Shown here one piece after another: positions 10,654 to 33,294 of a stretch of DNA of 64,000 nucleotides. Every line of letters begins with the position of its first letter. The first letter of the stretch is position 1. Source of the DNA: Streptomyces hygroscopicus. GTDB lineage: Bacteria; Actinomycetota; Actinomycetes; Streptomycetales; Streptomycetaceae. Location of the stretch: contig CP018627.1 in the NCBI GenBank assembly GCA_002021875.1, forward strand, positions 9,114,001 to 9,178,000, read 5' to 3'. The position numbers and the translations under genes are program-made. The notes under the pieces were generated by a model that was not told the origin of the DNA, did no database searches, and worked only from the letters and a program-made list of their open reading frames with translations.

Positions 10654-13600
10654 TCACAGACCGCGTTCGGTGAGCCATTCCTCGATGGCGCCGGTGGTCA
10701 GGGGGAGGTGGTGTTCCATGATCGTGAAGTGGTCTCCCGGGGTGGCCTTGGCGGTGTGCGGGAAGGGCCAGGACGCGCGCCACGCGTCGCCCTCGAACCC
10801 CTCGTCCTGGTGGGGCATGGGCTCGGCCGCGCTCAGGAAGAACGTCGGGCTCTCGACGGGCCGCAGCACGCACTCCTCCATCAGCATGGCGTTGTAGCGC
10901 CCGCTCGCCGAGAGCTTCGCGCCGGTCAGCGCGAAGTCGCCCAGTAGCTGTTCCCGGGAGTCCAGGCCCTCGTTCAGCGCGATGTGGGTCTTCTCGGAGA
11001 ACTGGTGGGTGGCCTCGAAGGTGTCGAGCAGCACGACCGCGCCGGGCGGCAGCCCCGCCCGCTCGGCCCGTTCCGCGAGGGCGTAGGCGAGCAGCCCGCC
11101 CATGGAGTGGCCGACCAGGACATAGCGCTCGGTGCCGATGGCGGCGCGCAGCTGGTGGAGGTGCAGTTCGATCAGGGCGTCGAAGCTGTCGGCCACCAAC
11201 TCGCCTTCGAGATAGCCAGGGTTGACCAGCGAGAGGACATCCCGCCTGCTCTCGAACATCTGTGCCATCATCCCGTACTGGATCGGCCCGGCGGTGGCGG
11301 TGATGGCGGGCAGACACACCAGCGTCGCCCGGGTGCCGTCGCCACCGGCCATCTTCACCGGCGGGAGGGTGTGGCCGGCGGCGTCCTCGGCGGTGAAGGA
11401 CGGCCGGAGCCGGCCCGCGGCCTGGATGAGCGCCATGCCCACCGACTGGGCCCGGCCCATGGCGTACGCCTGGTGGTAGAGGGTGGTGAGGCTGTCGTAG
11501 GGGTCCGCCGCCGGGGCCGCGGTGGCCTTCGCCAGCTCCAGCTCAACGGCGGACGGGGGTGCGGAGGCTTTCGGCGGGGTCTTCTCCGGGGTGGCCTCCG
11601 GGGTGGCCTGCTCCGCGGGTGCGGGTTCCTCGGCCACCGGGACGCTCGGGCGGGTGGCGGCCGGGCTGACCGCCAACGTGGTCAGGTGTTCGGCGAGCAA
11701 CGTGGCCAGATGCCCGGCGAGCTGGTCCACGGTCGAGTGTTCGAACGTCGCCGTGGCCGACAGCCGGAGCCCCAGCAGCGTGGCGAGCCGGTCGCGCAGA
11801 TCGATTCCGCGTACCGAGTCCATGCCGAGCGCCAGGAACTCGGTGTCCGGGCCGATCTCCGCCGCCGCCTCGTGGTGGAGCACCGCGCGCAGCTGTTCCC
11901 GGACGAGCTCCGCCAGCAGCCGCTCCCGCTCCGTGGGCGTGGCGTCCAGGACGCGCTGGGCGGCGGCGGTGTCCTGCGGCCGGGGGCCGGGCCGCACGCG
12001 CCGTACGGGGCGGGCCGCACGCTCCTCCGCGGCCGCCTGCAGCCGGTCCGCGGACACCGGCCGCAGCGTCAACTCCTCGATGTGCGCGAGCGGCTGACCG
12101 TCACCGCCCGTGAGATGGACGCCGACGGCATCCGGTCCGGCGGCGGACAGCCGCACCCGTACGGCGGCCGGTGGAGTGGCGTCCGGGGTTTCCGGGGTGG
12201 AGTGCAGCCGGACACCGGTCCAGGAGAACGGCATCCGGATCGGCGCGCCCGCCGCCTCCGCCCGGTCGAAGAACCCGCCGAGGCCGATCGCGTGCAGGGC
12301 GGTGTCCAGCAGCGCGGGGTGCAGCGCGAAGCCGTCCACCGGGCCGCCACCGGCCCCCTCGCCGAGGGCCACCTCGGCGAAGACGTCCCCGTCGCGCCGC
12401 CAGGCCGCCCGCAGACCGCGGAAGGCCGGGCCGTAGTCGAAGCCGTCGGACGCCAGCCGGTCGTAGAAGCCCGTCAGGTCGACGGCGCGGGCACCGGGCG
12501 GCGGCCACACGGCCGCCGGCTCCGCGAACGCGGCCGGGTCGGCGCCGCCCTGGCCACCGTCCTCGCTGCTCGCGTGGCCGTCCGGTGCCACGACGGCCCG
12601 CACATGGCACGTCCAGCCGTCCGCCGTGTCCCCGGCCGCGGACTCGGGGCGGGAGTGCACGGTGAGCACCCGACAGCCCTCCTCGTCGGGCCCGCCCACC
12701 TGGATCTGGAGCTGCGCCGCCTCGGTAGCGGGCAGGAACAGCGGCTCCTGGAGGGTGAGTTCGGGCAGATACGGACAGCCGACCGCACGCCCCGCGTACA
12801 GCGCCCAGTCGAGGAACACGCTGCCGGGCAGCACCACACCGCCCAGTACCGCATGGTCGGCGAGCCAGCGGTGCGTGGTCTGCGAGAGCCGCGCCGTGAA
12901 CAGCACCGTGTCGCTCCCGGCCGGAGCCACCGCCCCCGCCAGCAGCGGATGGTCCACCGCCGTGAGCCCGGCGCCGCCCGCGTCCCCGGTGTGCTCGGGC
13001 GCGTCCAGCCAATACCGCCGCGCGCGGAAGGCGTACGTCGGCAGGTCCACCGGCCGCCCGCCCTCGAACGTGGTCGGCCACGCCACCGCGCCCCCGGCAA
13101 CGAACAGCTCCGCGAGCGCGGTGAGCAGTCGCTCCCGGCCGCCCTCGTCCCGCCGCAGCGTGCCCACCGCCACGGCCGCGCGGGCCGCCGAGGTGTCCGG
13201 CGGCGTGTGCTCGATGGCCTGCTCGACCGTCTGCTCGATCCCCGGGATCAGTACGGGGTGCGGGCTCACCTCGACGAACACCGTGTGCCCGGCGGCGGCC
13301 AGGGCGCGTGTCGCCTGCTCGAATCGCACGGTCTCGCGGAGGTTCCGGTACCAGTACTCCGCGTCGGCGCTCGCACCGTCGAGGAGGGCGCCGGTCACCG
13401 TCGAGTACATCGGCAGCGCGCCGAGGCGGGGCGTGACGGGCGTGGCCAGCTCCAGCAGCCGCTCACGGATCCGTTCGACCTGCGGAGTGTGCGAGGCGTA
13501 GTCCACCGGGATACGGCGCGCCCGTACCCCGTCCCGTTCACACACCGCCATCAGCTCGTCCAGCGCCGCCGCGTCCCCGGCGACCACGGTCGAGCCGGGC

Positions 13601-33294: not shown

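Follow-up and report, generated by a model that had tools for sequence, protein, structure and literature searches.

A five-module polyketide synthase in Streptomyces hygroscopicus and its probable relation to the two ends of venturicidin/irumamycin-class assembly lines

The locus and its surroundings

The stretch analyzed here (the window, 64 kb of a Streptomyces hygroscopicus genome) carries a type I polyketide synthase (PKS) on its minus strand, from 33294 to 10654 (Table 1). Based on Pfam, the first open frame comprises three ketosynthases (KS), three acyltransferases (AT), and two acyl carrier proteins (ACP), the second reads KR-ACP, and the third (gene B) KS-AT-DH-ER-KR-ACP-KS-AT-DH-ACP-TE; our own domain models give the same strings. 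The loading KS is a KSQ (motif DSGQSSS), the four extension KSs carry DTACSSS, and all five ATs have the methylmalonyl-type motifs GHSQGE and YASH. Both ketoreductases (KR) are B-type by their LDD motif, KR3 with YxA and KR2 with YxP, a signature used for B2-type KRs (criterion from the parts consulted of PMC11672594). The Ser, Asp, and His motifs of the terminal thioesterase (TE) on gene B are conserved. An earlier note on this DNA, which had proposed a KSQ loading module, four extension modules, five methylmalonyl ATs, a TE, and a B-type KR in module 2, is borne out on all of these points by Pfam and the motifs. Most of the chain it predicted also stands, except that it took module 4 to be free of a dehydratase (DH), whereas a full DH with His and Asp motifs is found there. 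The upstream PKS gene (gene A), which it treated as one gene, occupies two open frames in this assembly (24076-33294 and 22179-24317), with the frame changing inside AT2.

Table 1. Features of the PKS locus (positions in the window)
Feature	Position	Strand	Remarks
Gene A, first open frame (3072 aa)	24076-33294	-	KSQ-AT-ACP loading module, ~33294-30247
Gene A module 1, KS-AT-ACP	~30171-27145	-	Within ORF 24076-33294
Gene A module 2, KS-AT part	~26997-24557	-	Followed by the out-of-frame tail
Gene A frame-change zone, C-terminal part of AT2	24427-24557	-	Near the end of the 2.5-kb repeat
Gene A, second open frame (712 aa): dimerization element, KR (B2-type signature), ACP, and C-terminal docking-like peptide of module 2	22179-24317	-	
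Gene B module 3: docking-like N terminus, KS-AT-DH-ER-KR-ACP (methylmalonyl AT, B-type KR)	15766-22095	-	
Gene B module 4: KS-AT-DH-ACP, no KR	11671-15708	-	
DH4, KR-less dehydratase of module 4, His and Asp intact	12076-12990	-	
Thioesterase	10654-11358	-	Ser, Asp, His motifs
P450 gene fossil, 77 bp	10572-10648	-	88% DNA identity to the P450 of locus L011
BrkB/YihY-family membrane protein gene; downstream cluster border	9129-10577	+	
RsgA-type GTPase gene; upstream cluster border	33778-34887	+	

The PKS lies between a BrkB/YihY gene with sulfate assimilation genes on one side and an RsgA GTPase gene on the other. We scanned 27 predicted genes of the window, leaving out three frames (3350-4150, 8167-9045, and 60875-61180) that are short or conserved. 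Among the 27, no P450, methyltransferase, or regulator of the classical tailoring type adjoins the PKS, and there are no nonribosomal peptide synthetase (NRPS), deoxysugar, glycosyltransferase, or carbamoyltransferase genes. The earlier statement that no P450, methyltransferase, or regulator lies alongside thus holds for classical tailoring types among the scanned neighbors, but needs to be qualified by the 77-bp P450 remnant listed in Table 1. Elsewhere in the window are genes of the assimilatory sulfate reduction type (339-6097; EF-Tu-like GTPase, PAPS reductase, APS kinase, and nitrite/sulfite reductase) and a xanthine dehydrogenase-like set (52481-57734; FAD, Fe-S, and Mo subunits and an XdhC-like factor), adjoined by a PucR-type regulator (50429-52246). 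Genome G000 gave 151 ketoacyl-synthase matches in 12.0 Mb, and 150 of 195 first-look candidates were scored.

The last ~160 codons of the first open frame are out of frame, and the switch falls near the end of AT2. A 97% identical homolog from Streptomyces sp. 11-1-2 (P0124) spans the window sequence in two frames that switch in the same zone, and gene A is unbroken in P0124 and in the relatives G371 and G096. The stretch in which the frame changes is C-rich, and a 2.5-kb repeat shared by modules 2 and 3 at 89% identity (26901-24388 and, in gene B, 21891-19367) ends close by. The flanking genes are similar in length to those of the compared relatives, save for differences explicable by the choice of start site. 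The frame change could be either a mutation or a sequencing or assembly error; if it is real, gene A of the window cannot complete module 2. In Streptomyces violaceusniger NBRC 13459 (locus L010), gene B has a frame change of its own at about 1938-2216 of that locus; it falls in the last part of AT3, a site that corresponds to the break in the window AT2.

Gene loss around the thioesterase

Eleven loci were examined around the TE (the window, L009-L017, and L033), including L009, in which the PKS itself has collapsed. A P450 of one type directly follows the TE in five of them (L009, L011, L013, L016, and L017); L015 has a P450 of another type, and three P450s are present in L016. Four more loci retain remnants of the first type: the window, where 77 bp at 88% identity lie between the TE and BrkB genes, L033 (about 106 codons), L012 (about 60 bp of the coding end), and L010 (about 30 bp of the coding end). 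In L014, only the leader spacer is left. Because the remnants differ between loci, they point to loss of this P450 by several separate deletions. A PKS described at the outset as minimal and without tailoring genes does indeed have none intact beside it in the window, but this is an outcome of gene loss, given the intact P450s and remnants at the other loci. With one P450 lost and different remnants left behind in sister species, these loci document pathway decay in condensed form.

Other changes have also occurred in the family. Locus L009 (Streptomyces samsunensis, 5807-10948) encodes a single-module KSQ-AT-DH-ACP-TE PKS of 1713 aa with its flanks kept and an intact P450 adjoining, so that the five-module line has collapsed in place. 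In Streptomyces atriruber, where the PKS is on two contigs, gene A is flanked by genes for a polyprenyl synthetase and for two P450s, and gene B is followed by three further P450s. Four of these PKS-flanking genes have counterparts in the window genome, clustered about 1.1 Mb away and without a PKS. The polyprenyl synthetase/P450 block stands alone in the window genome (L048, 8912-15046, at 10.2 Mb) and beside the PKS in S. atriruber (L055, 8763-13657). The terpene-type block may possibly reflect an old linkage to the PKS, or it may be a chance neighbor.

An unlinked P450 of the window genome (71% identical to the cluster P450 and about 1.1 Mb away) was considered as the lost tailoring enzyme. 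It is 76% identical to a third P450 beside the S. atriruber PKS. However, it also occurs at 76%-87% identity in four genomes (G359, G062, G101, and G164) in which no TE match is better than 1e-43; it is therefore not specific to the PKS and was rejected as evidence.

Given the frame change in gene A and the P450 fossil, it is about an even bet that the window copy is a pseudogene cluster in the course of being lost, with gene A frame-broken and the P450 deleted. The collapse in S. samsunensis and the frame change of gene B in S. violaceusniger NBRC 13459 are in line with this. On the other hand, gene B of the window is open and under purifying selection against seven relatives, and the break in gene A falls in a C-rich stretch inside a long internal repeat, where assemblies err. 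In short, the PKS copy of the window strain may be dead.

Relatives, predicted product, and the terminal dehydratase

For comparison, 37 gene B relatives, one of them the window copy, were chosen among 120 listed of 1548 matches. Of these 37, 20 have an enoylreductase (ER) and 17 do not. The AT4 serine is present in all 20 members of the ER group and in two of the 17 no-ER members (P0027 and P0028). AT3 is malonyl-type in 17/17 no-ER members; among the 20 ER members its specificity motif was legible in 14, and all 14 are methylmalonyl-type. Two FastTree trees, one of gene A from the loading module through module 2 and one of KS4 plus TE of gene B, both split ER from no-ER members as far as the strain name gives the type; in the gene A tree, the ER clade is set apart from all other members with a support of 1.000. 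TE matches with E < 1e-100 were found in six of 392 Streptomyces genomes, five of the ER type (window included) plus G029, and a class-wide TE search (E 1e-60) gave the window genome as the sole match among 296 genomes. For context, elaiophylin was the sole type I PKS family common to all 11 genomes in a comparison of the lineage, according to the parts consulted of PMC8407293.

The earlier note had allowed that PKS proteins encoded elsewhere might join the line. We found no sign of this for the subfamily, in which genes A and B are adjacent at all four readable junctions (window, G371, G096, and G081). The longest listed contigs of A and B are also equal in length in five strains (S. venezuelae, Kibdelosporangium banguiense, NPDC050528, NPDC052114, and OE57). 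In six others (ME19-01-6, NPDC059917, PvR034, S. rapamycinicus, S. asiaticus, and S. malaysiensis) the listed contigs differ in length and therefore provide no evidence of linkage.

Adjacency and the docking-like termini suggest that, in intact relatives, gene A would hand a triketide (ethyl ketone plus hydroxyl) directly to gene B, which would extend it by two methylmalonyl units, the first fully reduced and the second left unreduced. By the established PKS logic of colinearity, and with stereochemistry limited to the KR motif types, the predicted chain is 7-hydroxy-2,4,6,8-tetramethyl-3,9-dioxoundecanoyl-ACP (acid C15H26O5, 286.18). The C7 hydroxyl and C3 ketone would be placed for a six-membered hemiketal like that of irumamycin, and the TE would release the hemiketal acid, or C14H26O3 would result after loss of CO2. 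The ancestral P450, encoded just downstream, would have oxidized this product. The window strain no longer has this P450, and a genuine frame change would keep its gene A from completing module 2.

The trait with the likeliest effect on the product lies in the terminal module, KS-AT-DH-ACP-TE, which has a DH but no KR. In a set of 243 proteins gathered by homology searches (and therefore biased), 38 of 712 modules combine a DH and an ACP without a KR; the terminal module in question accounts for 37, and the remaining one is in P0109. The catalytic His and Asp of DH4 are kept in all 37 aligned relatives, and the glycine of HxxxGxxxxP in only 21 of them. Its nearest solved relatives are ordinary PKS dehydratases (e.g., those of rifamycin and fluvirucin). 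When the window is paired with each of seven relatives, every gene B domain has a dN/dS below 1, with 0.35-0.52 for DH4 and 0.18-0.35 for the TE. The DH4 value is the highest in five of seven pairs, tied in L012, and third in G371, provided that AT3 is disregarded in L010 (out of frame) and in G356 (60 residues). Between the window and S. atriruber, DH4 is 59% identical and DH3 is 70% identical. By these measures DH4 appears constrained, yet less so than most gene B domains.

The chances seem evenly divided as to whether DH4 is a structural relic, so that the product is a plain beta-keto acid or a decarboxylated ethyl ketone/hemiketal, as the earlier note proposed. The weaker constraint and the absence of the domain in G029 are consistent with this, and module 4, lacking a KR, would present no beta-hydroxyl substrate; the retention of both catalytic residues in 37/37 relatives is not what a relic would predict.

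A rather unlikely alternative is that DH4 is active on the cyclic form. The C3-OH of a C3 hemiketal is itself a beta-hydroxyl, and DH4 might dehydrate it to a tetrahydropyran-2-ylidene (exocyclic enol ether) acid, C15H24O4, or, after loss of CO2, to a dihydropyran, C14H24O2. Unused residues do decay in these proteins, because the no-ER members have lost the AT4 serine in 15/17 cases and the YGP tyrosine in 7/17, whereas the DH His and Asp remain in 17/17. Outside the family, phenylalanine often takes the first position of GxxYGPxF (115 of 313 matches), so it does not disqualify the window DH4. In the irumamycin paper, a role for DH12 in forming the hemiketal is put forward as a speculation (PMC11672594, as far as consulted). 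Opposed to this are the patchy HxxxGxxxxP glycine, the relatively high dN/dS and low identity to S. atriruber, and the missing terminal DH in gene B of G029. In addition, the consulted parts of both the irumamycin (PMC11672594) and X-14952B (PMC8365161) papers predict that DH12 is inactive, and no description of hemiketal dehydration was found in the literature seen. Searches for the KS-AT-DH-ACP-TE string, for hemiketal dehydration, and for tetramethylundec- compounds gave nothing. A separate idea, that terminal modules bearing a related TE always come with a DH, is ruled out by G029 (57% TE identity, no DH). DH4 is an unexplained domain with its catalytic residues in 37/37 relatives, and its role is testable in a two-gene, five-module system.

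Comparison with venturicidin/irumamycin-type and other lines

The earlier note recognized no known pathway. We find that the pair corresponds to the ends of venturicidin/irumamycin/X-14952B-type lines: genes A and B most likely resemble the first and last PKS polypeptides of such lines, a likeness that rests on published descriptors (the named genes being compared by description only) and on the neighborhood in G029. In that Streptomyces genome, the gene A homolog (66% identity over the loading module) has as divergent neighbors genes for an NDP-hexose 2,3-dehydratase, a GFO/IDH/MocA reductase, an epimerase-type protein, a glycosyltransferase, and a glucose-1-phosphate thymidylyltransferase. 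On another contig, a different PKS protein that ends in KR-ACP comes before the gene B homolog; after it come a carbamoyltransferase and a protein whose matches to ABC exporters are weak and below the cut-off. Together these are most of the X-14952B/venturicidin set (PMC8365161, parts consulted), although a 4,6-dehydratase was not seen among the scanned G029 genes. The two G029 regions (L036, 955-13306, and L054, 1-11566) form a probable venturicidin/X-14952B-type cluster.

The published text adds further points of contact. The irumamycin PKS (iru) of Streptomyces kanamyceticus INA-Ac-5812 has 12 modules and makes a glycosylated macrolide with a hemiketal ring; in the parts consulted, its loading module has a KSQ, methylmalonyl ATs are given for the loading module, M1, and M2, M2 has a B2-type KR and no DH, and M1 is absent from the modules named as KR-bearing (PMC11672594). 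IruF comprises modules 11 and 12: a malonyl-specific AT11, followed by a DH and a B-type KR, then an AT12 that has lost its serine, a DH12 that keeps its His, and the TE that ends the line (PMC11672594, same parts). The 17 no-ER gene B relatives match this description of modules 11 and 12 (malonyl AT, DH plus B-type KR, serine-less AT in 15/17, DH with His, and TE). It should be noted that two of the 17 keep the AT4 serine, and that gene B of G029 has no detectable terminal DH, both of which count against the likeness. The last module of G029 also has a degenerate AT.

Overall, we consider it somewhat probable that the locus is a stand-alone five-module PKS built from a homolog of the first polypeptide (gene A: KSQ loading, module 1, and module 2) and a homolog of the last (gene B: the penultimate module plus the DH/TE module) of venturicidin/irumamycin-class lines, without the middle modules and sugar genes, and that its intact relatives make the hemiketal acid. 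In the outgroup-rooted gene A tree, Kibdelosporangium (no-ER), Nocardiopsis, and Prauserella fall outside the two Streptomyces clades, no-ER and ER (0.931). This speaks for descent of the short line from a long one without proving it. The most specific version of events, in which a macrolide line shed eight modules and its sugar genes, kept its ends as a small hemiketal synthase, and uses the KR-less DH to dehydrate the cyclic hemiketal to an exocyclic enol ether, seems improbable to us. If the intact relatives make the predicted product, the family would be a natural example of a macrolide synthase reduced from a long line to its two ends and still functional. Such a case would bear on the evolution of assembly lines and on the sites where they can be shortened. 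No description of the shortened two-gene arrangement or of its predicted product was found in the literature consulted.

It is highly implausible that the PKS instead supplies the acyl chain of an azinothricin-type depsipeptide (polyoxypeptin/aurantimycin), because, although a KSQ-propionate start is common to both and the aurantimycin chain is a tetrahydropyranyl-propionic acid, those lines are described in the consulted parts of PMC3943440 and PMC5031334 as four modules on four proteins that use an unusual extender unit, end in KS-AT-ACP with no TE or terminal DH, and hand over to NRPSs, whereas the window PKS has both a TE and a terminal DH and no NRPS among the 27 scanned predicted genes.

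Returning to the relation with venturicidin/irumamycin-type lines, the differences lie mainly in the middle of the line and in what surrounds it. Irumamycin has 12 modules and bears a sugar (PMC11672594, parts consulted), whereas the window has five modules and no sugar genes were found there. Modules 3-10, encoded on further PKS genes in lines of this type, are absent from the window, where A and B are adjacent and genes of other kinds flank them. The carbamoyltransferase and deoxysugar genes of venturicidin A/X-14952B (PMC8365161, parts consulted), present beside the G029 homologs, were not found beside the window PKS, and the X-14952B gene sizes given there do not map one-to-one onto genes A and B. 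Within the last protein, irumamycin has a malonyl-specific M11 and a dead AT in M12, whereas the window has a methylmalonyl AT3, an intact AT4, and an ER in module 3. The last module lacks a KR in the window and in 17/17 no-ER relatives; the X-14952B paper names an inoperative KR12 (PMC8365161), and the irumamycin text, in the parts consulted of each, names no KR for M12, as it names none for M5 and M10 (PMC11672594).

At the two ends, the agreement is closer. The first modules described for venturicidin/irumamycin-type lines (KSQ loading, an unreduced M1, and an M2 with a B2-type KR and no DH, all methylmalonyl) are present in the window, and gene A, although frame-broken there, has the chemistry described for LM-M1-M2 of irumamycin. 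As far as the consulted text of PMC11672594 describes it, irumamycin thus shares with the window the KSQ start, the B2-type KR without a DH in M2, and a last two-module protein with a DH in its final module and a TE.
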